A stretch of DNA of 64,000 nt from Watersipora subatra (taxonomy: Eukaryota; Bryozoa; Gymnolaemata; Cheilostomatida; Watersiporidae): positions 15,460,027-15,524,026 of the forward strand of contig NC_088712.1 of assembly GCF_963576615.1 (NCBI RefSeq), read 5' to 3'. A model generated the notes under the pieces. It saw nothing but the letters and a program-made list of their open reading frames with translations. It was not told the origin of the DNA and made no database searches. A program made the position numbers and the translations under genes. The stretch's first letter is position 1. Each line of letters opens with the position of its first letter. Below, in pieces: positions 1,882 to 59,915 of the stretch.

Positions 1882-4800
1882 ATGAAGGCTGGCTCATTTC
1901 TAGCTACGTTTTTGCTGGCCTTATTTTTAATGAGTAAGTAAAAAATATGACCCAAAATTTTGGGTCATATTTGAAAAAATTGTAAAAGATAATTTTTTCA
2001 ATTTACAGTCCTTATTAAATCTTTATTCATTTCATACCGACAGAAAATAGTTTGAAAGAGAATGGCTGCATGTTTGTTAATGCTGCAGGGTGACCACTTA
2101 TAACCACCACAATAACCTTTCACGACATAGACTTAGATCTTTTGTATAATTTCGGTTGGTTATGAGGCTAAACAGCTTTTAAGTCACCTAAATTCTGTTT
2201 AACTTAAATTACGTAGCTAAAAAGTTGTTTTGAAAAGGTAGCCTCTTGCATTTAAAAGATTTTTAATGAAATCAAACAAAATGTTGAAAATTTCACATAT
2301 TATATCATTTGTTGACAGAGTAGCATTATTTACTTGTTTTTTAATAATAATGAATTTCAGGTTATTTTTTTAATCAGTTATATTGTTTGATTTTTTATAA
2401 CTTAATATGATTCATCGTTTATCCTTTATAACATTTTACTAATTTTGTAAATTTTAAATGCTACCACACGTTTCAGTGAGTTTATTAAATCAAAATCTAG
2501 CTTTACGTTGTTTTAAAAAAACTTGTCTGATATTTTTTAGCAAAAAATTTTAAACCATTTGAAAGCTTCTTCAAATTCTGGCAGATTATAATTTTTTTTG
2601 TTGCTACCAGACGTTCAGCAATGCTTTCCTTGAAAGCTAGTGTAGGCTATAATAGCATTATGTTTGTATTAATCATACGGTAGACTGATGATCGCCTTTG
2701 ATAAAAGTGTTCATATCCATCCGCATTTCCAACCATCACAAAACGTATACTGTCATACCTTTAGATAAGAGTGCCTCAACATGCGAGAAAGTTGAGATAT
2801 GAGCTGACTTTCTAGCAAGTTTCTGCCTTGAGATATGAGTAATCTTTGAGATACAAGCATACAAAGTGGTTGTCGATAGCTACAATATGGTAGAGTATTG
2901 GAGAGGCTGCTTGTGAGAGTAGCATCGCCTGGTATTTTTTGTTAAATCATTTAAAAAAGTCTGATTAGAAAGTTGACTAAAAGTTATAGCGAACGAGAGG
3001 CAAAAGAAACTAATCGGAACTGGATATTAAGTAAGTTTAGTGAAAGATTAATACTTTGCTTCAAGTGTGTGTTCAGTAAGCTAAATTCATTGAAGTTAAA
3101 CTCAAAGTTTTTATTGCGTAGGGTCAAAAAAGTTTAGTGTACTAAACGTGTTGCTCTCAAGTCTCTCAGGCTGCCGTTACCCACAATGTCTGTCTCGAAA
3201 GCAAAAACTACAATCGGTAGTGTACATGGGGATGTTAAACTTTATTGCAGATCATAACCACTAAATAGATACTTGTTACTTTTTTACTGTAAGTATTAAT
3301 TATTACAATCAAAAATATTTTTTTATCGTAACGTCCTCTTTAGGCGGTTTTGCGCAATAAGGTAAATGATTAATTTTTATTTAGTTGTTTTATATAAAAA
3401 ATAGTGTCTTGAGGTGCGAGGCAATTTACATACGAGCTCTTGCCACAATGCATTAGGCTCAAATGTTGAAGTATGACTGCATATAAGTGACTTGCTTGCC
3501 CCATTATAAAATTCTCCTTTTACAAAGCAGTCGCTGAACCAGTAAAATACTATTCTCTCATGCAACAAACATCATGAAGGGAAGAGTAGATCAAACAATC
3601 TGCAACAGCCGATCAACATCGTCGAAGTCGTGCACCTTACTGTTGCGGATACACAGTAAAACGTTGTCAAATTTGTCATCGGCAATGTTTCCGAACATAT
3701 TTGCGTTACCTGGCCGATATCATCAATCTACAGTGTGCACAGTTGATGAGTGGCTGAAAAACAACACTTACACTTACACTTACACTTACACTTACACATT
3801 GCAATACTGTGTGAACTGCTTTTAAAAATGAGCTTGAACAAAATTATTTTAGTCGATTATGTCAGAAATATCAGAGTTTCTCAATTATTTGCAATGGTCT
3901 TTTATCTTTGAGGTCTAACTACCAAGATGTTTCAAGATTAAGATTAACAAAACCTGGTCCAGTTAAAATGTTCAGATCAAGCAAAAGTGTGATTATGATG
4001 TCTATAGTTGCAAAGAGACCGACAGAATAGAGGAACGTAACGCTTCAACTTGAATGCAATAGACGATATCAACCATGGCAATGAAAGCAAGTAGCATCAT
4101 TTCACACAAATTTCTTTTGAGTACTTTTACTACGATCAAGTTTTGTCTTGAACCACTACTCATTAGTTTTTTTAGTTAGACTATAGTTTTGTATTCTCTG
4201 TTTGTTTGATTGTTTTTTGTACGCTGGTTTTTAGTTAATTTATTTGCTGTGATACCTTGTAGAAAACATGTAAAATATGACTATTGATTACCACAATAAA
4301 AATTGCTCATATATAAACACTCGCAGGGGAGGATCTAGGAAAAAACGTGTGTGGTGCAAAATTTTGTGTAATATATCTTGGGTGAGAGAGGGTGCGCGGA
4401 GCCACCCCAAGCCATAACAAGCCCTGCTAGGCTTTTTTGTTCCTTCCCTCCCAAAGCAAGTTCTCAGTGAAATGAAATGTAATTCATTCAATTCATAATG
4501 GATTTTAAATCTTTTTTTTGCCGTATATAGGGTGGTGCATTTGCACCATATGCACCACAATAGATCCGCCCCTGACTCGGGCTGTCAGATCACTGCAAAC
4601 ATCAAAAACAACCGGAAGTAGTAAAAATGCCAAAACTTACAGTTAAACTCTTCTAATATTTGGTGCAAGTTTATCATTAACCCTACTTGATATAAACAGT
4701 TCCAGTTGAATGTTGAATAGGTTTGGACATGTCTCAGGGTGAGATTGAAGGATACCTGTACTGCAGAAGAAACACTTGCGAAGCGGCTTGCACTGGCAAA

Positions 4801-5067
4801 TTTCGTTGCCATAGCGGAAGTTGTGGAAGGTTTCAGAGGTGCGAATGCTTTCTATGCCCGACCTGTAACAATTATTCATGCAACGAAAGTTGCCGCAAGC
4901 AAGGATTTATAAGTGGACGATGCCCAAGAGGTGCTGGAACTACTAGAGATTGTGTGTGCATGAGAGGGTGCGATAAAGACTACTATTGCTACTTTGAATG
5001 TAAATATAGAGCAAACTGTCACAAAGGTAGTTGCATTAATGGAAAATGCCAATGTCATTTTTGTTAG
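1882..5067 (+). CDS. Gene 1: secreted three-module CS-alpha-beta (defensin-like) protein, two coding exons
   Basis: Coding exons are 1882-1933 and 4721-5067. Exon 1 encodes MKAGSFLATFLLALFLM, a hydrophobic signal peptide, and ends at a GTAAGT donor in phase 1; exon 2 follows a TAG acceptor and gives 132 residues in all. The mature part has 22 cysteines: module 1 (8 Cys, about residues 32-63), module 2 (6 Cys, 66-98) and module 3 (8 Cys, ending at the last residue). Each has the Cx(4-5)CxxxC ... CxC order of the defensin CS-alpha-beta fold. It is probably an extracellular effector such as an antimicrobial peptide; that is inference. The 2.8-kb intron contains two transposon remnants and a hexanucleotide repeat. 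AATAAA signals lie at 5333 and 5377. The exon 2 frame is certain by cysteine pattern; the exon pairing is predicted. Confidence 0.85.
2747..3484. mobile_element. Mariner-like non-autonomous element A
   Basis: The left end reads CTGTCATACCTTTAGATAAG and CTCAACATGCGAG; the right end is the complement (CATACGAGCTC, CTCAAATGTTGAAGTATGACTG). This CAGTCATACCTYRACATRCGAG terminal motif is usual in mariner/Tc1-type elements. Internal sequence (GTTCAGTAAGCTAAATTCAT, CTCAAGTCTCTCAGGCTGCC) recurs in element B. No transposase frame. It lies in the gene 1 intron. Confidence 0.6.
3766..3797 (+). repeat. (CTTACA)n microsatellite
   Basis: About five uninterrupted CTTACA units in the gene 1 intron. It contains repeated ACTTAC, the complement of a splice donor. 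Confidence 0.85.
3862..4665 (+). mobile_element. Long-TIR foldback MITE, copy 2, split by later insertions
   Basis: The left arm and centre run from about 3862 to 4156 (CCAAGATGTTTCAAGATTAA, AAGTGTGATTATGATGTCTA), and the right arm resumes at about 4584 (TGTCAGATCACTGCAAACAT). The interval holds a 251-base hAT-like element and about 170 bases of other DNA. It ends just before the gene 1 exon 2 acceptor at 4720. Confidence 0.55.
4324..4574. mobile_element. hAT-like MITE nested in foldback copy 2
   Basis: Ends are CAGGGGAGGATCTA and its complement TAGATCCGCCCCTG (13 of 14 match), flanked by the 5-base direct repeat ACTCG (4319-4323 and 4575-4579). No reading frame of transposase type is present. 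The TIR is of the CAGGGGCGGATC kind usual in hAT MITEs; the short flanking repeat makes the superfamily uncertain. Confidence 0.65.
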
Positions 5068-5623
5068 CAAATTATAGTACACATCTTCTAGCGCAGATGT
5101 ACCATATATGAGACTATTGCTTAGTTGTAGACTTCAAGATCTGTAGCAACTAGATAGAATTTCTGAATTTAAATGAAACTAATATATGCATATACATTGT
5201 ACTTAAAAAGTGTATGAACAGACTTATTCGTTCACACAACAGAACTAAAGAGTTTTTCTACGACAATTTTTCTACTTTCTACCTTTTGGGTAGTGTGAAA
5301 ATGATTTATGTCTACAAATATTCAAATTTATAAATAAACAGCTTCATATAAGTTAAACTAAATGTTGTATGTATGAAATAAAATTAATTTTCTGTGCAAA
5401 AACCTTTTTATTACTCGAGCAATGCCAGATATTCACCTAGTTTTAACATAAAATCCAAAATTTAGTAAAAGATCTAAGCACTGTCATACATCTAAAAACA
5501 AAACGAACCATCTTCAAATTACTGTTACCTATATATATATACAATATAAACATTATTTATATGTATATTATATATATTATACATATAGTGCACAAATAAT
5601 AAATATACATAAGTTATGCATAT

Positions 5624-5625
<2 letters not shown>

Positions 5626-5890: not shown

Positions 5891-6867
5891 GCAACTGTGC
5901 ATATACTTATACAGCGCTTGCGAAAATACTATTATTCACTACTATGATTGTGTGAGAGATCATGATGTGTAATGTAAAAACTTGCTTCACGGCTCTTATT
6001 ATAGTAAAGGTTTAAACTAGCTTTCGTTATTAGTTACTGGCTACTAGTTACTGGTTTAAGTGGCTCAAATTCATTGGATAATTCTGTTAATACCCAAGCA
6101 ATGCCAAGCATTCATCTTATTTGATAAAAAGAGAAAAACCTGACTGCCAGTTTGAGCACAAAACTAGAATTGAAAAAAACTAATTGTATAATGCTGCCGA
6201 ATGCTAGATAAAATATCTTATTGCAAAAAATACTTTATAAAAAGTAAAACTCTAACATAAACCGAAATATACTATCTAAAAAAAAGGTAAGCATATAGGT
6301 AATATTTTTATTATGATAGTCTCAAGGTTTTAGAGCCTTTAATTAAACTTGACTGCAGGTACACTTCAACCTGCAATTTTACATAAAAATTGTTTATTTC
6401 CATAATCTTCACATTTTATTCCATCATAAACTCTACAACATAATTGCATCAATGACGCTAATTATACATAATAAAAATGTCAAAAAATCGTCAATATATC
6501 ATGGACTAATTACCAATTTTTAAAACTTTCATTTTTTATGTAAATAAGATGTTATATGGTGGCATAATAAAAATTGAGAAAGTTTGCAAAACTTTGAGAA
6601 ATTCTTTAAATTCTACGTAAGAATCTCAAAATAAAAACTCTTACCTATATGTATGCAACTATGAAAAAGAACGTTGCTGAATCCTCTTTGATAGCAAGTA
6701 GGTGTTTTCAAAAAATATATTTTATGTCTCTATTGTACATAACCAGCAGACCCGTGTGCAGCTATTTATTAAAAAGTACATGTAAACAACTTAGTAAAGC
6801 ATGTCAAAGGATATAGGCTTGGTTCACTGATTAATATATGCGCCAACAAAATCTCAAAAGATATCTT
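5891..6867. other. Intergenic, nothing recognised
   Basis: AT-rich sequence with stops in all frames. Confidence 0.5.
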
Positions 6868-7287
6868 ATCACATAGTATACACTCTCAACACATCGTATA
6901 AACTCTCATCACATAGTATACACTCTCATCACATAGTATACCCTCTCATCACATAGTATACACTCTGATCACATTGTATACACTCTCATCACATAGTATA
7001 CACTCCCATCACATAGTATACACTCTCATCACGCAGCATACACTCTCATCACATAGTATCTACTCCCATCACATAGTATACACTCTCATCACATAGTATA
7101 CACTCTCATCACATTTTATACACTCTCATCACATAGTATACACTCCCATTACGTAGTATACACTCTCATCACACTGCATACACTCTCATCACATAGTATC
7201 CACTCCCATTACATAGTATACACTCTCATCACATAGTATACACTCTCATCACATGGTATACACTCTGATCACATAGTATACACTCTC
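6868..7287 (+). repeat. 20-bp minisatellite, about 21 copies
   Basis: Unit ACATAGTATACACTCTCATC, with point differences (CTCCCATT, ATGGTATA, ACTGCATA) but a constant period. No coding frame is maintained. Confidence 0.9.
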
Positions 7288-12295: not shown

Positions 12296-14374
12296 TCAAC
12301 AAGCCAGACACTGGCAGCGGCCATTGTTACAAACACCACCTTTACACATTATCCTAAATCTACATTTGAGTTTGCAGTAGGTGTCTCTGGTACAATCATC
12401 CATACAAACGCAGTCTTCATAAAATCCATTGCGGGGACATTGCCCGTAATCATAGCCAACTGTTTTACAGAAACTCGTGCAGTGTTCGTCGCTCTTACAC
12501 GTGTGACAGTCGTAGCATTGACACCTTGAGGCCATTATGCATCGACCGTTGTCACATCCTTTGAGTTGCTTGCAATCAGCTCGACACTTTTCCACATGAC
12601 ACACTGGTATTGTCTGCTCATCGTAGCAGAAGACATCTGCAATAATAATGACGAAGACTCCAAAGTGATGAGCACTTTTGTTTTCAAGACAAATACTGAT
12701 TTCTTCTTACAACTCGGGCAAACATTTTTGAAATGCAACATAATTTCTGACCTACAATGTCAAGAACTTCTCTAAATAATTTTAAACCAGTACATACATG
12801 TACATGTATGTACTGTTATGTATATACATGTACATGTATATACTGGTTTGATTAAATACCTTGATTCCACATTGGTAAAATAATATCAAACAATGATCCA
12901 CATGTTTTATCTTTTTATATTAAATTTGTAAGTCAAAGAGAACAAGCATGAATAGCTATAACAATAATTTTTCTTTAATTAAAATAATAGCAATGTAATA
13001 ACTAATAGAAATATTGAAGTATGATTATTTTATATCGCAATAATAATATATAATATAATAATAATATATCGTAATAATAAAAAATGAAGGAAACTAAAGC
13101 ACGAAATCAAAAGAAGTTAATAATACAGTGTAAACAATAATATCTATGCCAACTAGACACATTCAAACAAATTTATTTTAGTGTTCAAGTAGTTTTGGTT
13201 AAATTTATATTTAATTTATATAAATTTATATATAGATATAAATTTATACTAAATTTATATCTTTATTGTAACCTTTTTATTAATTTTTTTTATAAAAAAA
13301 ATGAATATTTTTATTACATAAAAAATATTTGTTGCTTTTCTTCAGCTTAAAAATGAGGAGACAAAAATATGTATTTCTTACTAAATATTATATGTTAATT
13401 CAAATTAGTTTTTATTTTTTAATTCACCAGCTGTAATCACGGTGTTGCCTGGAATTTAATTTATTTTGTTTTTAATCACATAACAAATAGGTAAAGGCTA
13501 AGGCGGCTGGTTTTTAAGAACACGACAGAATTTTGAAGCATATGTAGTATTCTTTTGCAATCTGATGCCACTTGAAGAGCATGTTTATCCAGAACTTCAG
13601 TAAAAGTGTAAAAACTGAAGAGTATTTACAGAAACTAACAAACAGAGATAACCACCATAAAAATGGAATCTGTTAATATATATTGGCAATTATTGATTCA
13701 TAAAAAAGGGACGATAGCAAGTCGATTCAATAAAAATGGTTCGACATATAGTGTTAAAGTGATTTTTCCTGTTGAGAGAATGGCTATTAGGTAAAACATT
13801 GTTAAAAAAGCTAGTGGTAATGTTTTTAAAATAATTTGTATAATTATTATCTCATACTATGTTTCAGCTCTTATGTTACATAATATCATATTATGTAACA
13901 TGATATGATATTATGTTACATATTATGTTTTAAATATCATGTTATGTAACATAACATGAAACAGATCTTATGTAACATAATATATCATATTGTGTTACAT
14001 AAGAGCTGAAACCTCACAATTTTTATGTAAAAAAACTGGACACAACCTGTAAAAGATCTCAAAGTTTATAATTGTTGTAACAACCACTTAGCATGAGAAG
14101 AGCAAAACGATGCATAGATATCTTTCTCTATGTTTTTAGAACCTTATTCTAACATTTTATGCTTTGTGTTTGAAAAGGTGGGCAAAAAATCAAAGCTACT
14201 CTAAGTAGAAATTGCCTAGTTTATTCATTGCGCCTTCTCTAATTTCATCAAAATAAAGAAGTTGGTTTTTACTTTTATTACCAAGAAAATGTTTACGAAA
14301 GGCAAGCATAATGAATACTTACAAGAAAACAGCAATAATGCTCCAAGCGTGAACTTGACGATCTGGCAATGCAT
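12296..14374 (-). CDS. Gene 2: secreted three-module CS-alpha-beta (defensin-like) protein
   Basis: On the minus strand exon 1 is 14374-14323, encoding MHCQIVKFTLGALLLFS plus one base (donor GTAAGT), and exon 2 is 12636-12296 after a TTGCAG acceptor. The predicted protein has 130 residues. Modules with 8, 6 and 8 cysteines follow in order, with the family spacing (Cx4CxxxCx5Cx4Cx5CxCxxC in the first) and a GYDYGQCP turn in the second. One extra cysteine lies in the FCYDEQ stretch just after the signal and may be removed with it. The intron is 1.69 kb and holds a foldback palindrome at 13861. A reverse AATAAA at 12137-12142 could end the transcript. Role inferred as an extracellular defence-type peptide. 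Confidence 0.84.
12784..12849. repeat. Nested palindromes ACATGTACATGT
   Basis: AACCAGTA at the left and TACTGGTT at the right enclose two inner palindromes, CATACATGTACATGTATG and TATACATGTACATGTATA. It is about 150 bases upstream of the gene 2 exon 2 acceptor. Confidence 0.75.
13861..14012. repeat. Foldback palindrome with internal TATGTAACAT repeats
   Basis: Outer arms 13861-13891 (GTTTCAGCTCTTATGTTACA...) and 13982-14012 are complementary. ATGTTACATAATA-type palindromes recur about seven times between them. It lies in the gene 2 intron. Confidence 0.8.
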
Positions 14375-33722: not shown

Positions 33723-34170
33723 TGATATTTAAATATTTTTAACCCTTTGCAACAAATTGTTGCAAAAAAGATTGCCCAGATCTTCAAATTTTCAATAATT
33801 TTGTCGCGGTTTGTTTTAAAGAGATTTTTGACAGTTGGCTTAGTGTCAGCATCATGCTAAGATAATGGTAGTAAGATATGTTATATTCGTAGTGCAGCCT
33901 TTAAAACCTCATGCAGTAGAATAAAAATTCAAAAAACTACCAAATAATTAATTTTGTCTGTAGAACAACAATAGTTCAATTGTGTTTATTGCTGCCTTTT
34001 TGATATAAATGACCATCAACAGAGTTTTATTTCCCAAACAGGTTTGCATAGTTACCGACCAACAGTATTTCACAGTCATTTTGGTCATGTGAAATATTAC
34101 TTACAAAAATATGTGTAGATAAATATGCACAACATTTTCTGGTAAAATAAACTGCAATATTCTCAAAAAC

Positions 34171-38174: not shown

Positions 38175-38260
38175 CAATATAAGGCTTGAACGACTAGTAT
38201 TCAGCTTATCATACTGACACTCTAAGCAACTGAGCTGATCAACCATCTCTCAATTTACAA
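38175..38260 (-). mobile_element. tRNA-derived SINE head
   Basis: Minus strand: box A-like TGATCAGCTCAGTTGCTTA (38241-38223), box B-like GTTCAAGCC (38191-38183). Confidence 0.45.
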
Positions 38261-41622: not shown

Positions 41623-42786
41623 ATGAAAATGTTTACTTACAAAGCATTAGTGATCTGGTGCCTGGCTTTTACACGTAAGTAACATTTATTTCTTTAATCC
41701 ACTTTGTCATTGTGTGTGGCACGTGTGATGTGTGGTGTGTGGTGTGTGATGTGTGATGTGTGGTGTGTGGTGTGTGGTGTGTGGTGTGTGGTATGTATGG
41801 TGTGTGGTGTGTGGTGTGTATGGTGTGAGGTGTGTAGCGTGTGGCGTGTGGTGTTTGTTGTGTGGTGTTTGGTGTGTGGTGTATTGTGTATTGTGTGTGG
41901 TGTGTAGTGTTTGTGTGTGGTGTGTGGTGGGTTGTGTATGGTGTGTGGTTTGCGGTCTGTGAAGTGTGATGTGTGGAGTGTTGTCTGTGGTGTGTGGTGT
42001 TTGGTGTGTGGTGCAGGGTGCGGGGTGCAGAGTGCGGGATGTATAGCGTGTGGTGTTTAGTGTGAAGGTATAGTGTGAAGGTGTAATGTGACGGTGTGGT
42101 GTTAAGGTGTTGTGTGTCATATTTTGTGCGTGTGATTAGTATTGTGCAAAGTTTTTTATGCTTTTCTGGATTTTTCAATTTTGATCAAATTTCACATGCA
42201 TATACTCTATGCCTTCTGCTAAATTGCAAAATAATTTTATTTTAAAATCCCTATCTGGTTTCTGAGAAACAGCCTTTTAAGCTCTAATTTGATTAAAACT
42301 CAAAAATAGTTTTTGCATGCATTCAGAAGGGTGGACTCAATGAAAATGCATTCATGGATTGTTGTCATAAAAAGTGTAGCATAAAGTATAAAAAATATAC
42401 ATTCATTTATGAACCATCTGATCAAACAGAAAAGAAAACTTGATAATCCCTAAATTTAATGCTACATTATAATGTATTACTATATAATATAAAATCTAAT
42501 AGCAGTACTATGAAACATGAAATTGTTACAAACTGTTGCAGTTCTGAAGATTTCAACAGCTGAAACTGATGATGAATGCAAAGAAGAAGAGTGTGTAAAC
42601 TTCTGCAAGACCCAACTACGGTGCACAACTGGCCAATGCAGCCCAAAGGGAAAGTGTGAATGTGATATATGCCCTATTTGCGTCAGTAACTCAGAATGCA
42701 TGACATACTGCCAGAAGACTGGTTTTGCTGGTGGGAGATGTCCAACATACATAGGCATCAGCACCTGTTTATGCATGAGAACCTAG
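41623..42786 (+). CDS. Gene 6: secreted two-module CS-alpha-beta (defensin-like) protein
   Basis: Exon 1 (41623-41674) encodes MKMFTYKALVIWCLAFT (donor GTAAGT in phase 1) and exon 2 (42542-42786) follows TTGCAG; 98 residues are predicted. Only two modules are present: 8 cysteines then 6 cysteines, ending CLCMRT, so 14 in all, an even number compatible with full pairing. The stop comes just where the third module starts in the longer relatives, and no third module is visible downstream. The N-terminus of the mature part is acidic (TAETDDECKEEEC), unlike the basic relatives. The 0.87-kb intron is largely a GT-rich minisatellite. AATAAA at 43364-43369 may end the transcript. Confidence 0.8.
41703..42120 (+). 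repeat. GTGTGTGGT minisatellite in gene 6 intron
   Basis: Degenerate TGTGGTGTG units fill about half of the intron, G+T only on the sense strand. It begins within 30 bases of the exon 1 donor. Confidence 0.9.
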
Positions 42787-43570: not shown

Positions 43571-45192
43571 AAATAAACATACAGAACTCTTAGTATAGAA
43601 AAGAAAAGTACATTGGCAGTACAGGATGTTGTGAGAGATTGCCATATGTAGTAGATATGTGCACAACTATTCCTGTATGTGAAAAGGTGATTGAGTAGTG
43701 ATGATGACAGTGCACTTGGCTGAGAGACTGATTATCAGTCTCCGATGTCGAAAGGTATGTAGTATGTAGAAAAGTAGCCGAGTGGCGAATATGGCTAAAA
43801 ATATGATTATCACAGTTTGATGCCTGTGCTTAGCAATAAGCTTTCCTAACCCGTTCAACTTCTGACAGATAGACACATGAACATGACTCTTCTTATAGCA
43901 AATAATAGTTTCCATTTTAACCAATTTACAGTTTGAAACAGCAAATATCTTTATACACTGGTGGTAGGATTACAATTGGCAGCCATAACGTTTAAGTTAT
44001 TAACTTTACAAACAAAAAAGGTAAAATATGTAAAAGCAATATCAATTACAAAAGTGTCTTCACAAGCTTTAAAATACAGAAACATAACAAATATAATAGC
44101 AAAAAATAATTCACAAGTATAAACTTTTTGTCAGAGTATTTTTTAATGAAGCATGTTTGTCTAAACAGGGTTTTAAGTTCTTTTGACACAAGATAAACTT
44201 AAATAAAGTTCATGACTAGTTAGCAAGTATTAACCAGAAGCATAAATTTGCAATGTAGAGCTGCAACATCTTGAGCAGCAAGCTTTACATACTAGCATTT
44301 TTTCAAACAATGATTTTCCATTAAGCAACAGCTTATTTATTTAACAAGTAAATTAGGTTACAAGTTTGATTTGTTAATAGTAACTTTGGAAAATTTTTCG
44401 AAAATTAAAAGATTGTTTATTATTTGCTAAAGCGTGTAGTTTTCTGAGACAGCCGATTGTAATACTTCAAAAAAGCAGCAAAAATGGATAAGCGTGCCAT
44501 GTGCAAAATCGCTATATTTCAAACGCTACATTATGTAAGATGCTTTAATATTTTTGACACATGCTCAAAAAGGGTGAGTTACGGTTAACAAAATGGTTAT
44601 GTGTTTCAACCCTTTCTTTTTATTTCACAAATGAACGAAAAGTTTGTCTAATGTACCAAATATTTTGTTAATGACAAACTAGTATGTTTATCCATAAGCT
44701 ATAAGCTTTGCTGGAAAGCTACAGCAAACCTGGTTTTCTTACACTAGCTAGAAAGCTAGTCATGAAACAAATAGGGTGTGAATTAATTATGCACTTGTTA
44801 AGGAAAAATCTATGAACATAGAATCATCTTTTGTTAACTAATTTGGCAACATGTAATTAACATATTAATTGCTTTCATAATTACTTATAAACAAAAACCA
44901 TAATTAGATTTTGCATATAGCTAACGTGTTTGCTACCAACATGCATTTATTGTAGCCTAAAACGTATAACATGCTTGAAAAGATTTTAAACGGTAAACTT
45001 GAAAGATGTACTGTCATTCATATACATGTACTTACACATCCAAGTTGTTTTCACTTAACAAAAAGGCTAAGTTTAAAAGATTCTGTCATAAAGAAATTCA
45101 ATATTCCCTTTCAAGTCCCTAGCAACAATACTCAAACAATACTAGCAGGTGGCTTGACGATACTTCGTATTTCTATCAATTTTAATCATATA

Positions 45193-45362: not shown

Positions 45363-46084
45363 AAAAAATAGGAGCCAAGAAGAGCCTTTCAATCAAATGT
45401 TTTTAGTAAAAGAGACTTTGAGCATATGCAAGAGAAGAATGTATGAAATGAGTCAGAAAGCATAACAGTGCATAGCAATTATAGGTATTAACAAAAGCAG
45501 ACACATAGAGAAACTGTGGTGTATAATTGATATAGAAAACGAACATTTGTTACAAGTCTGTGTAGGAAATGCATTTAACAAACAGGATTTACAGTATAAG
45601 ATTTCTGAAATTTTGATCTTTTTTTAATTACACTGTGTTATAATAAACAATGCTTGGAGATTAACCCCTTGAGTCGACTCAACCATGCACTAAATTCTTG
45701 GCTAATGAGTTTAAAAATACATATTTGTAAATAAAAAAGTGAACTCTGTTTATCATGGTGAGTGAAGTTGAAAAATGCTTTTTCAAACTGGTATACCTAA
45801 GTTATCAAAAGACTGTTATTCGCAAATGTTAAAGTTTAGCTACGAACCATATGAAACAATAAGTAATAATTAATATCAAACCAAATAAAATAAACTTGCA
45901 TTTTGAATTCAATTATTGAATTTAAACATTTTTTTGCTACAACTAGTAGCAAATTATCAAACCAAATCTAATTTGATAAATGAGCAAAGAAAAAAAGCAT
46001 GTTCAATCTTGCGTACCCAAGTTATCATACAAATGCTATTCAAAAGCGGGCAACCAAAAACACATTAGTAGAGCTGACTATCAA

Positions 46085-46183
46085 ATCAAAATAAAATAAA
46101 ACGCCTCATTGGCTATTCTAATGACCTTTAAGCTGTTTTGATATTTAAATGTGTTGCTTAAATTTTAGACCAAAAATCTAAAA
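46085..46183 (+). promoter_or_regulatory. Proximal upstream region of gene 7 with inverted CCAAT box
   Basis: ATTGG (inverted CCAAT) at 46108-46112 lies 76 bases before the ATG in a block nearly identical to that of gene 8. No clear TATA box or start site can be fixed from sequence. Confidence 0.3.
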
Positions 46184-46669
46184 ATGGACGTAAGCACCGG
46201 AATATACCTTACAGCCGTGTTCATACTACTCAGTAAGTAGTTTCCTCTATTCATCTAGTATTGTATAATACAGGTAACAACTTTGGTAAGTACAACAACC
46301 ATTATGTATGCTTTTTATCGCCTGAAATATTTTGCAGGACTAAACTTGTCCAAAGGTGGGAACTGTGACTATGACCAGTGCGTCTCTCGTTGTCAAACAA
46401 ATAATCAGTGCGGTGGAGGAAGATGCAATTATCGGGACCAGTGTGTCTGTGAAGATTGTTTGTTTTGTAGCAGTGATATGCAATGCACTAAATATTGTCA
46501 AAAGCAAGGCTATGCACAAGGACTGTGCCCAAATGACTCTCCAGAGAACAAATGTGTGTGCATGCGCAGATGCTTTGCTAATCTCTACTGTTCATATAAG
46601 TGCCTGTATCGTAAAAGTTGTGAACATGGAGAATGTATATCTGGTCGGTGCATATGCACAGGTTGTTAA
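46184..46669 (+). CDS. Gene 7: secreted three-module CS-alpha-beta (defensin-like) protein, tandem twin of gene 8
   Basis: Exon 1 (46184-46232) encodes MDVSTGIYLTAVFILL; exon 2 (46338-46669) follows TTTGCAG. The intron is only 105 bases. The 126-residue product has modules at about residues 26-57, 60-91 and 95-126, each exactly 32 residues, with 8, 6 and 8 cysteines. Spacing is Cx4CxxxCx5Cx4Cx5CxCxxC, then Cx5CxxxCx9Cx8CxC, then Cx5CxxxCx5Cx4Cx4CxCxxC. The third module is very like mussel eight-cysteine defensins in spacing. An ATG further 3' (46283) is inside the intron and would lack a proper signal peptide, so I prefer the spliced start. It shares promoter-proximal sequence with gene 8. 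Confidence 0.87.
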
Positions 46670-49089
46670 CTTATAATTTAGGTTATCTGGTCAACATATG
46701 ATAACTTTATTCTCTGCATTTGTTACATTTTGCAAGATATTTTTGTGACCACATATTTTACACATACTTGGTGTTATATAATTTCTCATTATTTAAAAGC
46801 TACCATGTGTTTGTATGCAAATACATTTAAAATATTTGTAAATATTATAATATCTACCAATTAATATATAAGTATATATGGATTAATAACAACAGTTTCA
46901 AAAAGTAAAATATTGTATATTGTTTGAGAGAACTTTTAATTTACTACTAAAATTGATTTTAACACTTTAGAGAAAAGCAACAAAAACAGATGAGAGTGCT
47001 ATGTTCTCTATTGTTATATTGCAAAAACTACATTATGCGAGAAGCTTTATAATTTTTGACACATGCCCAAAAAGGGTGAGTTTTGGTTAACAAAATAGTT
47101 ATATGTTTTCACCCTTCTATTTATTTCACAGAAACAGACTGCTACACAATTCTTTTAAAAAAGACCCTCATTTGTGCGAATAAACAAAAAGCTTGTCTGA
47201 TGTACATAATATTTCGTTTATGACAAACTAGTAGATTTATCCTTGAGCTATAAGCTTTGCTAGAAAGCTACAGTAAGTCTGTTTTTTCACATTAGCTAGA
47301 ATGCTATTGATGTAACAAATAGGGTGTGAATTAAACATCTGTTTAAGGCATATCAATGGACTTGGGATCTTTTGTTAACTAACTTTACTGATGCGTAATC
47401 AACATGATAATTGTTTTAAAAATTACCTGAAAGCCACAACCATAAATATATTTTGCATATAGCTAACGTGTCTGATACCAAAATGCATTTATTGTAGCCT
47501 AAAACCTATAACATGGTGACATATGTATAAAAATAAAATTATATTCTGTTAACTAACTTTACTGATGCGTAATCAACATGACAATTGTTTTAAAAGTTAC
47601 CTGAAAACCACAACCATAAATAGATTTTGCATATAGCTAACATGTTTTCTACAAAAAGGCATTTACTGTAGCCTAAAACTTTTAAAACACTTGATAATTT
47701 CATTCAATGAACTTGAATGACGTACTGCCATTCATATACATGTACTCACACATACAACTTGTTTTGACTTAGTAACAAGGGTAAGTTTAGAAGACGCTGT
47801 CATTAAGCAAATCAATAACCTTCCTCCAAGCCTCTACTGCATACATATAAGCTATTTATTTTGTACTGCATTTTTCACTTTTTTCTTCATTTTCCATGAG
47901 TATTTTTAGTAACAAGTGCAACCCTTTACCAAGTACATTAAATTTTATTTATTTTTCATTTATCCTCTGTGTGAGCATGTAAACTACTGGTAGGCTATCA
48001 TAGATTACATTGCAAATTTAAAAAACCCAGAAAAACTAGTGTAAAAAATAATTTATTCAACCAATAAACATAAGCAATAGGTTATGTATTTTAATGAACG
48101 ATTCAAGTGGTCAAAAACACTGATGCCATTTTTTCAAACCTACATTGTTCAACTTCAGTAGAATTTTAACAAAATTTTAGATCAGAATTTTTATACAATA
48201 CTAGCAAGTGACTTGACATTGTTTGGTATTTTTATCAATTTTAATTGTATAGCCTGCGGGTTTACATGGTTTCCAGTTTAAAAAGCTAAAAACCAAGTGG
48301 AGCCATAAAATAAAATATTTTTAGAAAAAAGCAAATTACTTTGAGCATACGCAAGCGTAGGTTGTATGAAACTAGTCAGAAAACATAAAAATGCACAGAG
48401 TTTATACGTATGTGGGGAATTGCTGTGGGGAATTAAAACGGATAACAAACATTTGTTACAAGTCTGTTTACGAAATTCATAGCAAAGATTTTATTCAACT
48501 GAACCTGTATAAACCTGTTTATAGGATTTAGAGTATAGAAAGTACAAGGCTGTTATCTTTTTTATTTTAATGAAAAGTTTTCATACAATCTGAATTTTGG
48601 AATTCTGAAATTCTTTAAATTGTATTGGGTTATAATAAACATTGATTAAAAAGATTAACCCTTTGAGCCAACTCAACCATGCACTAAGTTTTGACTAATA
48701 AACTTAAAAATAAATTGTTGTACATATGAAAGTTAAATTTGATTAACGGAGTGGATGAAGTTAAAAAGTGCTTTTTCAAACTAGTATATCTAAGCTATCA
48801 GAACTCTTTTATTCACAAATGTTAGAGTTTAGCTAACAGCCATATAAACCTCTAAGCAGCAATGAATATCAAATCTAAATGAAATGAACCTGAATTTTCA
48901 ATTCAATCAATGAGTTTAAACATATGTTTGCTACGACTAGTAGCAAACTATTAAACTATATCTAACTTGATAAGCAAACAGAAAACGAAAACAGCATGTT
49001 CAATTTTGCGTACCCAAGCTACCATACAAATGCTATTTGGAAGCGGGCAACCAAAACACATCAGTAGAGATGACTATCAAATCAAATCA

Positions 49090-49189
49090 AAATAAAATAC
49101 ATGTAAAAGCGTCATTGGCTATTCTAATGACCTTTAAACTGTTTTGATATTTAAATGTGTTTCTCAAATTTTGGACCAAAAATCTAAAA
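49090..49189 (+). promoter_or_regulatory. Proximal upstream region of gene 8 with inverted CCAAT box
   Basis: ATTGG at 49114-49118 lies 76 bases before the ATG, the same distance as in gene 7. The surrounding TTGGCTATTCTAATGACCTT is shared by both copies. Conservation may simply reflect recent duplication. Confidence 0.3.
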
Positions 49190-49671
49190 ATGGACGTAAG
49201 CATCAGAATATACCTTACAGCCGTGTTCATATTACTCGGTAAGTAGTTTTCTCTATTCATCTAGTATAATACAGGTAACAACTTTGGTAAGTACAACAAC
49301 CATTATGTATGATTTTTATAAACCTAAACCTATTTGCAGGACTGAACTTGTCCGAAGGTTGGAGCTGTGACTATGACAAGTGCGTGTCTCATTGTCAAAC
49401 AAGATATCACTGCGGTGGAGGCAGATGCAATCCTTGGGCTCAGTGTGTCTGTGAGGATTGTTTGTTTTGTAGCAGTGATATGCAATGCACTGAATATTGT
49501 CAAAAGCAAGGCTATGCACAAGGACTGTGCCCAAATGGCTCTCCATTGAACAAATGTGTGTGCATGCACAAATGCTTTGCTAATTTCTACTGTTCATATA
49601 AGTGCCGGCATCGAAAAAGCTGTGAACATGGAGAATGTGTATCTGGTCGGTGCAAATGCACAGGTTGCTAA
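49190..49671 (+). CDS. Gene 8: secreted three-module CS-alpha-beta (defensin-like) protein, tandem twin of gene 7
   Basis: Exon 1 (49190-49238) encodes MDVSIRIYLTAVFILL; exon 2 (49340-49671) follows TTTGCAG; the intron is 101 bases. The 126-residue product has the same three 32-residue modules as gene 7. By direct comparison the two proteins differ at 8 positions in module 1, 3 in module 2 and 5 in module 3, with every cysteine kept. Flanking DNA for more than 2 kb upstream is also duplicated. The uneven substitution pattern hints that module 1 evolves fastest. Confidence 0.87.
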
Positions 49672-49839
49672 TATAGATTACCTTATCTGGTTAACATATG
49701 ATAACGCTATTATTTGCATTTGTTACATTTTGCAAGATATTTTTAATGTCCACATACTTTACACATACTTGGTAGTATAGCATTTCTCATAATTGAAGTA
49801 CTACCATGTGTTTTTAATACATATAACCTTTGTGATATT

Positions 49840-52600
49840 TACAAAAATAATAATATAGTAATATGAATATAACAATATAACAATGTACTATGTGATTTTG
49901 TTATAAACCAGTGGTAAGCCTGGCGATGCCCACAAATTTTTTCCTTTGGAGTCTGCTGGTTCGCACATACTGTATATATTTAGGATAATGGTTTTCAGAA
50001 ACCAAATGAAGCTTCAAAAAAAAAATCTTTAAGGGTCTGACAGCAAGCACAAAGCGTATGCTTGAGAAATATGAAGGATATCAGCCAACAAAGGTGGAGA
50101 AACATAACATTTAAGCGAGTTACAGATGCACTCAATGACAAAGTAGGATTTTTTGTAATTGATTTTAGTAGATTTTTACAGTTGATTTTTTTTGTAATAA
50201 CACACACTTAAGATAATTCGTACTGCCGAAAAAATTTACATTTTAAATCTTGCTACTAACTATAATCAGCATAAACTGAAAATTCTATCTATTCTACATT
50301 TTAGCTTGAAATGATTTCGTGGTCAGTTAATATATAAATGCTTACACCGCCAGTATAAATAACATACAATCAGTTATATGCGACTGTAGGCTGACAGAAC
50401 ACCGAAGTTGTAGGCTGATGTCATCAACCAACCAAATGGTACAGAAGCCTTTTATCTATTTGAGCATAGTAATCTTGACATATCTGTTTCAATAATTCAA
50501 ATTTATAGGCAGACTAAAGTGTAATAGAGGTTAGTTTGAAAAGTATTCTACGAGAGCAGAATCAATATAAACTAAACTAACTTCCAATTTCATTTTTGTT
50601 TACCATGTCTCTTTTTTTCTCTTCTAATTTTAAAAGTCACTAGTCTATAAACCAAGCTTCCTCAAACAAACGTAAAAATTTTTAAAGAATTTTTGGGTTT
50701 TCTCTGTCATTATGAGTTGTTAAAATGCATATAGTTCATGCTGTCTCTAATCGAAACAATCAAAAACAAAAAATAAAAAAACAAAAAATAAAAAAGCAAT
50801 CAATCAAAAACTTGGCAACAATAATTTTATTGCTTTTTCTCCGCTAAATACCATAAAAGCCAGATACATTCAATGAACTGTACAAATGACAGTTTACTTT
50901 GAAAGACTTCTTTTAATATTTTATGAATGATGTATCTGCCGCCATATGTTTGGAGATTTCAAACTCCGCCAAAATAAAGCTTTTAGTGAAATCAATTTGT
51001 TGTATCTGTTAGAATGCTGCATGTAAATTTGAGTAAGATAACAAACCGTATTACATAAAACAATAATGATTGTACTTACAAAATAACTACCTTGCAGATT
51101 AATCTTTGACATAAAAGCCTTTGTGTGAACATACATCTGTATATGACTGAGCAATAATCAGAGGTTGTGAGTGCTAGATGGCTTTAACATGCAAGTGTCT
51201 AATGGCTCTTAAATAAATAAGGTTTAAAAATTGAACAAGTTACATGTGAGGGCACAGTCAGCACAATGCCTGGCCTTTTGTAAGATACACTTTTAAGGAA
51301 AAGCTATTGTTGTTTAATGGGGCTGTTGGTTGCTGCCATACCATAAAAAATAAAAATATAATACTTTTACAACAGAAGTATGAAAGTCTTTTGCCTTCTT
51401 TCACAAATAATCATTGAGTTCACAATTCAAATAACACAAAATTAGCGTCTAGTATGAGACAATACCCAAACCTTCATAATAACCTTAAATATTAAAAATT
51501 AACTAATTTTCCATATGCTTTTGCAAAAGCTAAATTTTATAATCAACAGGTCCCTCACCAAAAATCTCGATCTAAGACAATCTAACCCAATCTATATTTC
51601 TATCTCAATTTATTCCAAATCTATAATCCTAGTTTTATAATCCCAAATCCATTGTATCATCTTGAAGGTTATATTGACAGTAAAATTGACAAGAACATGT
51701 CTAAAAGTACTAAATAACAATGAAATTGAGTAAAATGTCTTCATTACATTATCAAGAAATATTTCAGCTTTAATCAGATGGCTGTTAAAAGGCTGTTTTT
51801 TAAGAACAAGGTAGAGCTTTGAGATCAACTGAGTTTAGCAACACAGTAAAAGGCACAAATTATAATGCATGTAAAGTTTGGATGAAATCAACAAAAAATG
51901 TGAAAATGTATAGCGCTTATCCAAACTTATGAGCGCAAATAAAACATGATAATAGTAAAATCAATAAAAACTAATATTACATTTGTTTTGACTAAAACAA
52001 ATTTATTTTAAAAATCAAGATTCTGAGCTTTCATTAATGCGTAAATTTTTAAAAAAGCTCTTTTTTATTGTGAAAGGCATGACTAACTTTCCTGTGAGAA
52101 AAATACAAAAAATTTGTAAGAAGTTGTGAAAAAATTGTGAAAAAAATAACTTTCCTGTGAGGGAAAACACTTCATTATATGTGGTGGTGAAAAAGCAAGT
52201 AAAACTATGGCTGAATAAGCTATGAGTGAAATTGAAGAAAGATACCTAAAATTTACTTTAGTAAGATCTCCACATAACATTTGAAAACCGATCAAAGTTG
52301 GAAAAATAGCTAGTCAAGTTCACCATTTCATTTTTGTGAGTGATTCTTTGTGAACTACATTTACCTGCATACCTATCACAAACCAACCCTTGACCAAATT
52401 GGCTCATTATAACACAACAGATTACGAGATCAAATTGCTACCTACAATGATATTTTGCGACTTTACCTGTTTTATTTTTTAGTTAGTTCTTGTCCAAATT
52501 ATCAGTAATTAAAAAGGAATCGGTATGCATACATGCATATTTTAAACAATGAAACAAAATAGAACGCTATATATATATACCACAAGATTTTCAAGGATTA
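49840..52600. other. Intergenic between genes 8 and 9, nothing recognised
   Basis: Short frames only. Two near-identical AACTTTCCTGTGAGRGAAAA pieces lie at 52085 and 52148. Confidence 0.45.
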
Positions 52601-52841: not shown

Positions 52842-55800
52842 TTATTTGAAAAAAGGTGACATGTGATCGATACATATACAACTATCGATCGGTGTAAAAC
52901 CATTTTCAGGACACTCTCCGTAATCAAACCCCATTCTTCTACAGTATGTGTTGCATTGCATGCTATTTTTGCATGGCGGACAGTAGTGACATTGGCAAAA
53001 GTGCAAGCTACTGCAGGAACCACCTCGACATCCATAGACTTTCTTACATAGAGCTAAGCAGTTCTGACGACTGCAGATCAGCTCAGGTTGACCTTGAGAC
53101 TTGTTCAGACCTAAAACGTAGTTAAAAAGATTTATTGAAACGTAGAAATTCTCTAAATTTAGAAAACTTTTGAAATTTATTTAAATGTTAATTAAAAAAA
53201 ATTTTTTGTAACTAAAATACATCCTAAAAACTTCGAAGTTTCATCAACCTTATAAAACAAGAATGAAGTAGTTGAACAGCAAGTCATGCTTTCTAAGATG
53301 CCATCTATTGGATCACTGCACTACAGTTATATTAAAAAATTTCTATAAGTTACCTACCTAATCAATTGCACACAATATGGTCTTTTGAATTTAATCTGTT
53401 TACAATGAAAGTTTGCGTATTTACAAAAACAGCAAACTTAGATAGTGCAAATGTGTCCATAGAATTACGTTTATCAAATGTTTAGATTACGGAAAGGAAA
53501 TAGATTTTGCCTAGCTAAATCTTTTCAATAAATTGTTTCCGTTTCACAAATGCAAAAAATGAATTTTTTTATTAATTGATGATGAATTCCTGGTTTTAAA
53601 TATATTTCTAAGTAATTTTGCTCAGTTCTTATGCATTCACGGAACAATTATAAATAACTATCATAGCCTATTTGCTTTTAAAAAACACAATATTACCATA
53701 TGTATTACTGCCAACCTTCAACTTGTAATGTCAATTCACTCCTATACTTGCTTTGTAGGTCAAAACAACTGTATACATGCATGGGCAAAAGGTTCATTAT
53801 AAGAATGCATCGCGGATACTTTAACCATTTTAGTGCAAAAAACAATCAATGCTTATTTTACTTACAGTGGATATGATGTTGAAAATAACCAGCATAATAC
53901 TTTATAAAAAACTCAGTTTACAACTATATTTGATAAAAAAATAAAATAACAGTAGCTGAAAACATTTTTATTGACTTCATTTTGCTGAAACATGAACAAG
54001 GGCGCAAATTTGCAATGCTTAGGTTTGGTGGTAGAGTGAATAGCTTGAACACATGGTACGACTTACAATATATTTACTCAAAACTAACCTAATCTATGTG
54101 ATTATTATGTTTCTAACTTCTATTTAGCATGCTGTAAATTATATTAAGTGTGAAGGCAAATACTTGCTGAAGGGTTACAGAGATGGTCATAGATTTTGGA
54201 TAGAGAGAAAGATATAATATGCTTTGTTTGCACTAGTCCGTAAAGGAAATCAAGTAATATTACTATTACTAGCATTTGGTGACTTTTGATTCAATTGGCT
54301 AGTTTTGCAAAAAAATACCTATTTTGTCCAAAAAATGAAGTTTAAACAGCAAAATGGAAAACAAAATTAAGTGGTCAAGGGATAGCAGAGACAACACTAA
54401 AAACAAGCTATAAAAATTGTGTGATGTGAGTCAGAAAACCTCGCATACACGTAAGTAACTCGAAAATAATATGGTCCAAAACTAAGGGCATTACAGTTAC
54501 TAGCCAACGGACCTTATCTACAAGAGGAGGCTGTAATAATTAGGTAGGCGCACTGCTTTAATAATGTCAAATAAGTATGTTGTCGTTTTAGGCATCTACC
54601 ATTATTTTTTCTTAATAATCTATAACAAAATAATTTGAAAGAAGTCTGTAAGAATGGGCTTAAAAACGATTTACTCTTTTTAGTTAGAAAATAAAATCAA
54701 TGGGCAGCATTTATAGCGTAAAACAAAAGCAAAAACTTTTATTTATATATGCACTTTTATATCACAATTTTAGTCAATTCAACTCTGGCGGTGAAATTAT
54801 TTATGCACATGTTTATATTTCCTTTTTGTAAGTTTTTGAACCAGTTTTTACAGTTGCAAAAAATAATCAATTAGAATAGTTGTATATGCAAAAGTTGGGT
54901 ATTGAAAAATTTACACTTTTTTATTGACACAAAAATATGTTTGAAGACTTTTTCTAAGAAATTTAGAGTTTTGCCAGAGCTCATAAAGATGCATGCACAT
55001 TATTGCAAGTTGGACTTACCGCTTTTAGCATGAACAAAATAATTTTTGCTAGCCACTGACTCAAACCCAGATAACCTGTTGTATTGTTTATATAAATTCT
55101 TCAAAGCATGCTAATTTTTGTGTAAAAAACTTTTTGAAAAGTTGCTTGAGAAGAACCATAAACGGTTTATAATTTATGACTAGTTAAAATATCTCTTAAA
55201 ATTAAGGATGAAATATTAAACCGCAAGCCAATTTAATCTCTAACTAAAAACAAATTCAAACATAGATTTTCACAAAAGGTGATCTTATAAATGAATAAAT
55301 CTTAATTTACAAAAATAGAGTGCAAAATGTAAAAAATAAATTAACTGACTTTTTAACCAGCTGATGTCAGAAACAGAAAAAACTAAAATAATATTTTTAA
55401 CATGCACTTGAAAATGTCAACTCTAATAAATGTTAGGGTTGAGAAATGACCCTAACAAATGTTTTTTATTCAATTACTTGCTTTTTTATTGCCGAAGAAC
55501 TGTTTGACTGTCCTGTCAGGTAACAGACTGTCAGCTGCCAGTAGTTTACTTAATTTTCACAAATTAACATTTTAGCAGCAGACTATATAAGACTTGTACG
55601 TCAAAATGCAATTATTGATTTTTGAAGATGTAGATCATGCAAAATCAAATAATATATTTCAAATATATTCAATGTTAGCTAAGTTACAAAAGTAACTGGC
55701 ATGTATTCAAAATCTAAATTTATTTGCTACGGAGTGCGGTTGTAACGGCTCGTTGTAGTATTCATACAAAAATATTCATCACAGACCAAAGAATGAATGG

Positions 55801-57329
55801 CTTCACCTAAAAGTTTGCAACAGTAAATAGAATATTTTATCATCCTTTTGATAAAACAGAACATAACAGTAGTTTTTTCTCAGAAGTCACAGCACATTAT
55901 TGCGATCTCAAAGCTTTCTAATTTTTGGTTTAGAACGAGTGAAAATATATTTGTAAACAACGATCTAATCATATTTTTGCAGCTCACAGTAGTATGTATA
56001 ATATAATATATATAACAATTTAATATCATTTTTTAACAACGAGCCTCAGATATTTCTGATAACTGTATTTTTATATTAAAAAATAAAGATTCAGTTTTTA
56101 GCAAAGCTGGAAAGCAATTGCATTTCTCTCTTGCAGCCAGTTTTTCGAAGCTAAAAAGTTTATCAAACGTGGCTTACGTAGGTCAAATACAAAGATTTTT
56201 TAAGCAAAATTTTTTATGGAATAAAACAATTAGATTAAAGCTTCAAAACAAAAAATCTAGCTGTTAAAGCATAAATACTGAGTGTAAATCAGTCAAACTA
56301 TTTTGACAAAAGTTAACTTTTTTGGAAAATGCAAAATATTTTTACTACGAAAGAGCTAAGATGTTAATTTTTAGCTCAATAAAATTACTTTTGATTGAAA
56401 GCTTGAGCAAGTAAAAAGGCAGTATACAGGAACTGATCAGCCTAATTTACAATAGCTTGTGGTGTTCAATATTGCTACAAAAAGATTTTCAGTCATTATT
56501 TTATTCAAATGATTAAAATATATACCTCCCCCATGTATAAACTTTATGATGAGCAGGCTCAAAATTTCAGTAGACTTTATCAGAAAGTTTCAGCATTTTT
56601 CTATCGTTTGCTATTCTTTTTTGCTTAAGGTAATTTGACTGCCAAGATGTTTCAATATTAAAATAGAAAAAACTTGATCGGAGTTAAAATACTCAAATCG
56701 CTCAAATGTAAAAGCGTATATGACATTATTTGCAAAGAGACTGACAGTGTTATATGTCACTGCAAAGAGACGGATAATGCTGTCGCTTGAATACAATAGA
56801 CAGTATCAACAATAGCAACTAAAGCTGCCAGGATGCTTTAAGATTAAAATTGGCAAATCATGATGACACAAGATCCAGTGAAAGTGCAGTTATAACTTCT
56901 ATCATTACAATGGGACCAATGGAATAGAGATGTGTAACACTGCAACTTCAATGCTATGGTCGATGTCAGCTAAAGCAGCAATAACAACAACCAATGTCAT
57001 TTCACATGCATTCATCTTCTAAGCATTTTAATCCCAACCAAGTTTTTCCCGATTCAAATCTTGAAACATCCTAACAGTCAGATCACACCAAACATCAAAA
57101 ACAATTGCAAATGATTAAAAAAATACTGATACTTTCTGATAAAATTGCCAAAAATATTGTGTAAGTTCGTTTTGAATACAATGATTTTTTTCAAATGAAA
57201 AGTTTTTTAAAATTTTTTTAAATTTTTTAACATGTTGAAGTTCAACAAATACAGTTGTTGTATTTGATAATACTTACTTATAAAGGTGATTGCTATTGCC
57301 AGAACTGCATTCACCCACTTCAACTTCAT
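52842..57329 (-). CDS. Gene 9: secreted two-module CS-alpha-beta (defensin-like) protein
   Basis: Minus-strand exon 2 is 53110-52842 after a TTTTAG acceptor. It reads LNKSQGQPELIC and continues through module 1 (8 Cys) and module 2 (6 Cys), ending CICIDHMSPFFK; 14 cysteines. The matching frame has no ATG in exon 2. The best exon 1 is 57329-57278, encoding MKLKWVNAVLAIAITFI with a GTAAGT donor in phase 1, giving 106 residues. This makes a 4.17-kb intron, the longest in the family, which holds a partial foldback MITE; that lowers confidence in the pairing but not in exon 2. A reverse AATAAA is at 52612-52617. It groups with genes 6 and 10 in lacking module 3. Confidence 0.78.
53111..56544. other. 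Gene 9 intron, unannotated part
   Basis: AT-rich; no exon with family cysteine pattern was found on either strand. Confidence 0.45.
56545..57165 (+). mobile_element. Long-TIR foldback MITE, compound copy 6
   Basis: The left arm (CAGTAGACTTTATCAGAAAG, GACTGCCAAGATGTTTCAAT) and the right arm (CTTGAAACATCCTAACAGTC, CTTTCTGATAAAATTGCC) flank a centre in which the inner arm and core occur twice (56640-56815 and 56822-56990). It lies in the gene 9 intron. Confidence 0.6.
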
Positions 57330-57995: not shown

Positions 57996-57999
57996 TACT

Positions 58000-59590
58000 T
58001 CAATGGCTATATATGCAAATATCAAGTTATACTAATATATATTTATTACATACAATCATTTATATAAGTTATTTGTTAGAGATAACAAAGTTCAAGCCTT
58101 GTCTGATAGTATTTAAATGAACCATATCAACTGTTCGTGCCAAATTTATCCACAAAGTTATTCTACCAAATATTCAGTTGGCAGTAAACTGAGTAAGTTT
58201 TGGCAAATATGTTTTGTTACAGCAAACCCTGACATCTTAGTTGTTTAGAAGGAATAATTGCTAGATTTTCTAGAAATAAAAGTTGAATTTGTGTCTTTGT
58301 GTACACATTGTGTTTGGGTCTATATGTATATGCCATCTTCATGTCTAGTTGCATATGTTACCGTTATATTCATGGGTATATTTTGTTTCTGAGTCTGCGT
58401 ATATGCTTCCTTTGCCTCTGAGTGGAAATGGTATTTTTGTTTATGTACTTATGTTGTTGTTGTGTCTATTTGTCAATGTGTATGTAATGTTTTTGTTTTT
58501 ATGTGCATATGTTGTTGTTGTGTCTATGAGTACATATTCATTTTATCTCTATGTGTATAAGTAGTCTTTTCCTTTGTGCGTATATGTATATGATGGCTTT
58601 GAGTCAAAGTTTATAAAGTTTGTGTGCCTCTGTAATAAATAGTTAAGCATCGCGCTGGCTAGGCAAAACGATGAATTTCTTTGTTTAAAAAAAGAGAGGA
58701 TAACAATTAAGAAATTTATTTAACAAATAATTGTTTTATGCTTCTCTTCAAAAGAAACTGCCCTAGTTCAAGTATCAAAACACAGATACAACACTTTTTT
58801 AGATCTCAAATCTAGTTTAAGGCATGTGAGGTGCAGAAATCTTAACGTATTTTTTAATTACATGTAGGTTACCAAAGAGTTTGCATGCGTACAAGAGAAA
58901 CCGAATAAAATTAAAAAAAAACAATTCAGCAATTTTAATTTTTTTATCAGACAAATATTTAATTTTTTAAATAAATTATTTAATAGAAGATAAATTCAGA
59001 AAGAGAAAAATTGAGCACAAGTTATAAAAAAAAGGCTACTATCAAATTTTTAATTTATTAGAGGCATTGCAGAAACTTTTGTTTTTAATTATATATTTAA
59101 GTTTAGTAAACAATTTTTTAGGTATATTTGTGTTTTCCTTTGCATTACAACTATTAATACTATTTGTAATACCCTTGTTTTCATATTTTTATTTACATGT
59201 AAATAATAAACATAACTTAATTTTGTATCAGAGATATAGACTAACTACTCAATATGCACAAGAAGCCAGCTGAATGCTAGAGTAGTTACATGTATGTTAG
59301 GGAAGTAGCAAAGTAAATACATTTGATAAAAAGCAGTTTGCTGCCAATTTTCTGCCAAACTAAAAAATAAAAATAAAATCTTGAATTTGTAAAGCACTAT
59401 CCGTGACACACTACTGCAGTATATATGTATTGTATAAAATTATGATTATATAATCAAGAGAGAATTGGAAATTTACTTAAGAAATAGCAGCACAATGATA
59501 TCTTGGTGATATGACTGTTAACAATCTGAAAGAAAATATAAATGAAGTGTAATATTCCTTGTATATGTGTCAATATTCCAATATTAAGTA
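58000..59590. other. Intergenic between genes 9 and 10
   Basis: 58300-58600 is T- and G-rich with TGTTGTTGTGTCTATxTG reiterations; no gene is seen. Confidence 0.4.
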
Positions 59591-59667
59591 TTTATTACAC
59601 AAAGTCGCTAACTTTAGTAATATTTCTGACAGCTAATGAACCACCTTAAATAATAGCTTTTGTTGAA

Positions 59668-59915
59668 CTATTCACGATCTGTTGAGAGGGGATCAGAACA
59701 TTCGCATCCGTTTCTCATCCTGGAAATTGGACATTTTCCTGAACCATAACCTTTTGCTTTGCACCGTACAGTGCATTGGGTGTCACTTATGCATTTGGGA
59801 CATACCTCGCAGACACAGTTTCCTTGCGAGTTACATTTGTTAAGCCGGCATCCATAGTTATCGCACAAGCGCCTACAAGCTTGAGTGTCACATTTCGCTT
59901 CTGAAAGATTCAAAT
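59668..59915 (-). CDS. Gene 10: second exon of a two-module CS-alpha-beta (defensin-like) protein
   Basis: The exon starts after a TTTTAG acceptor at 59915 and encodes 80 residues beginning LNLSEAKCDTQAC in the same phase as its relatives. Module 1 has 8 cysteines (one residue shorter between the third and fourth than usual) and module 2 has 6, ending GCECSDPLSTDRE. No convincing signal exon was found between 59915 and 64000. A GTGAGT donor after a hydrophobic stretch at about 63953 on the same strand is the only weak candidate, so exon 1 probably lies beyond the window. The 1.4-kb transposon at 62.3 kb lies in what would be the intron. A reverse AATAAA is at 59591-59596. Confidence 0.75.

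Follow-up and report, generated by a model that had tools for sequence, protein, structure and literature searches.

A cluster of ten genes encoding multi-module, defensin-like proteins with predicted secretion was found in a 64,000-nucleotide stretch of the genome of the bryozoan Watersipora subatra (contig NC_088712.1, positions 15,460,027–15,524,026 of the forward strand; hereafter the window). In each gene a single exon, designated exon 2, carries two or three modules with the cysteine pattern of the cysteine-stabilized alpha-beta (CS-alpha-beta) fold. At the level of sequence, the copies, their framework, splice phases and module types, the near absence of linkers and the lack of a common basic cleavage site are established, and the fold and signal exons of the family are predicted. 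The most likely reading, held with about as much confidence as doubt, is that these genes encode exported, uncut, multivalent CS-alpha-beta chains for host defence, with disulfides formed within modules.

The six-frame scan of the window revealed one cysteine framework in ten cysteine-dense frames, among low-complexity and other frames. A phase-1 AG acceptor is located 7–13 residues ahead of the first framework cysteine in all ten genes (G1 to G10, Table 1); additional AGs are present nearby, so acceptor choice was based on the common phase and place. Seven genes contain 22 framework cysteines, arranged as three modules (8+6+8), and three genes (acceptors 42542, 53110, and 59915) contain 14, arranged as two (8+6). 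The 14 cysteines are kept in 10/10 genes and the full 22 in 7/7, despite low sequence identity: relative to exon 2 of G7, identity (cysteines included) is 33–38% in eight of the nine other exons and 81% in G8. The motifs CxxxC and CxC are present in 27/27 modules and GxC in 26 (9/10 for module 1, 10/10 for module 2, 7/7 for module 3), being missing in module 1 of G10; judged from the sequence, this set represents the CS-alpha-beta signature. In nine genes the cysteines of module 1 are spaced 4-3-5-4-5-1-2, with 4-3-4-4-5-1-2 in G10; those of module 3 are spaced 5-3-5-4-4-1-2 in 7/7. Module 2, with spacing of 4 or 5, 3, 9 or 10, 8 to 10, and 1, appears to fit the six-cysteine CS-alpha-beta pattern; in G9 the gap after its GxC is 10 residues, beyond the 3–9 of the scan pattern.

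The genes with two modules serve as a natural test of where the modules begin and end. Their products (G6, G9, and G10) end 3–9 residues past module 2, and in all three the cysteine found after module 2 in the longer proteins is missing. This cysteine is therefore most simply assigned to module 3, leaving six to module 2. The linkers comprise two residues between modules 1 and 2 and three between modules 2 and 3. A dibasic pair is present in a single linker among the 17 (MRR in G7), indicating that there is no cutting site common to the family.

An upstream exon with an ATG, a hydrophobic core and a phase-matched donor on the correct strand was predicted for nine of the ten genes. These putative signal exons comprise 15–17 codons plus one base, with GTAAG donors in eight and GTGAG in one, and the predicted introns range from 101 to 4167 bases. 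For G10 only a weak candidate was found within the window (63740–63809, 23 codons), with the poor donor GTTCGG. In comparison with 20 Markov sequences used as controls, candidates of 13–29 codons were enriched (39 in the window versus a control mean of 12.9, maximum 18), as were those of 15–19 codons with a stronger core (17 versus 2.05, maximum 6), although five of these 17 sit in a GTGTGGT repeat. Candidates of exactly 17 codons, a length picked after the exons were known, numbered seven versus 0.45 (maximum 1), with six at framework genes and one elsewhere (58428–58479, plus strand). The signal exons are thus above chance as a set, and individually each is a prediction. Thirty GATA-type sites were counted in the 600 bases upstream of the nine signal exons, where 18–20 are expected (p 0.005, for one motif among the six tried); NF-kappaB-type sites were absent from the same regions, with 0.04–0.3 expected.

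Could the ten frames be functionless cysteine-rich open frames, arisen by chance or as decayed copies? The shorter length of three members and the predicted status of the signal exons would suit this explanation. However, the 14-cysteine pattern, although derived from the same exons, has 10 matches in the window, against none in 30 shuffles from a second-order Markov model. At the window composition, a frame stays open for 110 codons with a probability of about 0.00025 (5 of 20,000 trials), and all ten frames are open throughout the framework and share a single splice phase. Such an origin is therefore very improbable. Profiles built from the ten exons re-find all ten places (self-matches with expect values, E, of 5e-21 to 1e-38), and nowhere else in the window did they give a match below E 1. 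A first-pass annotation of the window had described ten exons with this framework, nine phase-matched signal exons and two or three modules in every member; its coordinates, counts and phases agree with the scan and the acceptors, and its signal exons with our predictions.

The AlphaFold2 model of G7 contains the order helix-strand-strand three times (mean predicted local distance difference test score, pLDDT, 65.9), and that of G6 contains it twice (mean pLDDT 70.7); confidence in these predictions is modest. In modules 1 and 2 of both models one helix is followed by two strands. The pLDDT in G7 is about 74–80 for module 1, about 79 falling to 61 for module 2, and about 51–55 for module 3, which is also barely covered by the structure comparison. 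In Foldseek searches, defensins, scorpion-type toxins or brazzein account for 48 of the best 50 matches (113 in total) and for 49 of the best 50 (129 in total), part of these being presumed assignments of ours. The individual matches are weak, but those listed belong almost entirely to the defensins and scorpion toxins. The profile of module 2 matches plant and fungal defensins (5nce, E 3.5e-5; plectasin, E 3.8e-4), and that of module 1 has 16 matches, including a weak one to the "defensin" 2b68 (E 1.7), which we take to be the oyster defensin. The alignment of module 3 with the potassium channel toxin Pi7 spans 32/32 positions free of gaps (E 0.02), and maurotoxin (E 0.06) and HsTX1 (E 0.7) are likewise matched over all 32; no solved mollusc defensin was noticed among its 44 matches. 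The Pfam family Gamma-thionin (PF00304) scores above its cut-off in one of the ten exons (G6, 26.5 versus 25.1 bits) and below it or unlisted in the others. The cysteine order, profile matches and predicted folds support the earlier proposal of multi-module defensin-like proteins, in which a helix and two strands were expected in each module, least surely for module 3; no strong match to an unrelated cysteine-rich family was obtained.

The matches of module 3 and the many scorpion toxins among the structure neighbours are also what would be expected if the proteins were multivalent toxins, secreted by a gland and directed at ion channels in prey or predators, with several knots slowing release from the target. 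The channel-blocking pair of such toxins consists of a lysine before the fifth cysteine and an aromatic residue after CxC. This pair is present in none of the 17 eight-cysteine modules; one of them (module 1 of G2) has arginine and tyrosine instead. The scaffold does not decide function: according to section 6 of PMC5116183, six-cysteine sequences of this kind cannot be told apart as toxin or antimicrobial, and some eight-cysteine scorpion toxins have the mollusc/nematode pattern. A toxin function is considered unlikely, even if the clustering and the substitution pattern described below would suit venom genes.

G7 and G8 are duplicates, and all 22 cysteines are kept between them. They are located in a tandem duplication (45601–46853 and 48594–49856, 84% identical over 1275 columns); further paired blocks (44455–45103 and 46955–47817) suggest a unit near 3 kb. 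Their second exons are identical at 300/332 positions with no gaps, compared with 629/762 positions and 24 gap columns in the flanks (p 0.0009 for identity and 0.0004 for gaps). Two observations weigh against a simple reading of this difference: the intron is equally similar (90/100, 6 gap columns), and the exon differences are spread evenly over the codon positions (11, 11, 10), as would also be expected of decaying copies. The ratio of nonsynonymous to synonymous substitution rates (dN/dS) is 0.7, and 0.9 without the shared cysteine codons, from few changes (9 synonymous, 27 other); it is limited to this pair, since the remaining pairs are too diverged for dS. The comparison indicates that the pair has preserved its frame and 22 cysteines, with the remainder changing almost freely.

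A defence role is favoured by the predicted secretion, the positive net charge in nine of the ten genes (+2 to +7 for exon 2, histidine not counted), the clustering and the kept scaffold. The proteins would be exported via the predicted signal exon and would adopt a compact fold, the framework cysteines pairing within their own modules (4+3+4 or 4+3 disulfides). The chain would stay whole, with no release of single peptides, and act as one multivalent defence protein whose hairpins may bind microbial surfaces with avidity. An antimicrobial role may be supposed for the ten proteins; however, the charge is modest and uneven, which counts against a plain membrane-killer. In a possible though rather unlikely elaboration, the chain would be hetero-trivalent, with lineage-specific 8-6-8 knots binding different sites or targets together, and the cluster would vary the surfaces and hold the scaffold.

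Table 1. Genes of the cluster and repeats in the window (positions within the window; signal exons are predictions)
Feature	Position	Strand	Details
G1 signal exon	1882–1933	+	17 codons + 1 base; donor GTAAGT; intron 2787
G1 exon 2	4721–5067	+	acceptor 4721; three modules (8C+6C+8C)
G2 signal exon	14323–14374	-	ATG/hydrophobic core/donor scan; intron 1686
G2 exon 2	12296–12636	-	acceptor 12636; three modules
G3 signal exon	20872–20923	-	donor GTAAGC; intron 2003
G3 exon 2	18534–18868	-	acceptor 18868; three modules
G4 signal exon	28379–28430	-	donor GTGAGT; intron 1870
G4 exon 2	26156–26508	-	acceptor 26508; three modules
G5 signal exon	36223–36268	-	15 codons + 1 base; intron 1699
G5 exon 2	34171–34523	-	acceptor 34523; three modules
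G6 signal exon	41623–41674	+	ATG/hydrophobic core/donor scan; intron 867
G6 exon 2	42542–42786	+	acceptor 42542; two modules (8C+6C)
G7 signal exon	46184–46232	+	16 codons + 1 base; intron 105
G7 exon 2	46338–46669	+	acceptor 46338; three modules
G8 signal exon	49190–49238	+	16 codons + 1 base; intron 101
G8 exon 2	49340–49671	+	acceptor 49340; three modules; duplicate of G7
G9 signal exon	57278–57329	-	ATG/hydrophobic core/donor scan; intron 4167
G9 exon 2	52842–53110	-	acceptor 53110; two modules
G10 exon 2	59668–59915	-	acceptor 59915; two modules; good signal exon not found inside window
Dispersed repeat copies	1459–1588, 3838–3988, 31741–31868, 35958–36109, 56562–56693, 57022–57162	both
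Minisatellite array	6864–7287		20-base unit
Minisatellite array	27695–28057		16-base unit
Minisatellite array	33367–33728		36-base unit
Minisatellite array	41723–42013		7-base unit; inside predicted G6 intron

Besides the cluster, the window contains a dispersed repeat of about 100–150 bases, with copies roughly 75–86% identical in pairs. An Rfam tRNA match on the minus strand (38171–38244; 31.9 bits, cut-off 29) was not called by ARAGORN and is possibly a tRNA-derived repeat. An open frame at 63254–63499 (minus strand) has weak helix-turn-helix matches below the Pfam cut-offs and is perhaps a transposon remnant.

The first-pass annotation had called the multi-module build unusual, which is only partly right: fused CS-alpha-beta domains are already known from X-tox proteins, nasonin-2 and -6, nematode bi-domain peptides and MtDef5, that is, from a few lineages (moths, a wasp, nematodes, and a legume) in the open-access literature consulted. 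A cluster of ten genes with the mixed 8-6-8 arrangement was not found described there, and would mean another origin and a different build.

The known mollusc and nematode eight-cysteine defensins are single-domain mature peptides, whereas all ten genes here have two or three modules per exon, unless the chain is cut. With those defensins (MGD-1, myticins, and ASABF) modules 1 and 3 share the cysteine order, which corresponds to C2–C6, C8, C9, and C10 of the reference array in the available text of PMC5116183; it is present in 10/10 copies of module 1 and 7/7 of module 3, compared by order and place of GxC rather than by individual loop lengths. Four-disulfide scorpion toxins of potassium channels (Pi7, maurotoxin, and HsTX1) have an eight-cysteine spacing that module 3 shares, as in its alignment with Pi7, but they are single-domain venom peptides, and the eight-cysteine modules of the cluster lack their blocking pair.

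The same construction principle is seen in the lepidopteran X-tox proteins (Spod-11-tox and kin), with several CS-alpha-beta motifs in tandem on one secreted chain and no conserved cleavage sites (PMC2728511, available text); in the bryozoan proteins secretion is predicted. Spod-11-tox is immune-induced yet has no antimicrobial activity according to the same text, and the present family might likewise comprise non-killing immune proteins, such as secreted binders, opsonins, inhibitors or signals. This is a possibility that we regard as rather unlikely, since the module types differ: X-tox proteins carry 5–11 six-cysteine motifs of the form C-x4-C-x3-C-x7-G-x-C-x3-K/R-C-x-C, with spacers (PMC2728511), whereas here two or three modules with 8-6-8 cysteines are joined by linkers of two or three residues in ten clustered genes, with eight rather than six cysteines in modules 1 and 3, and the spacing of module 2 departs from this consensus. 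Nasonin-2 and -6 of Nasonia vitripennis contain multiple defensin repeats and belong to tandemly duplicated genes; in the accessible part of PMC2853521 this wasp family is discussed under exon duplication, whereas the bryozoan modules share one exon and differ in type. The nematode bi-domain peptides, to judge from the title of the source, are a further precedent for joined domains. MtDef5 likewise joins CS-alpha-beta domains, and module 2 matches plant and fungal defensins in profile; MtDef5, however, has two 50-residue domains with a 7-residue linker (PMC5700942, available text), and module 2 of the bryozoan proteins has six cysteines. In these sources joining raised activity in MtDef5 (PMC5700942) and was accompanied by its loss in X-tox (PMC2728511). 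With natural two- and three-module forms side by side, the Watersipora cluster makes the contribution of each extra knot addressable.
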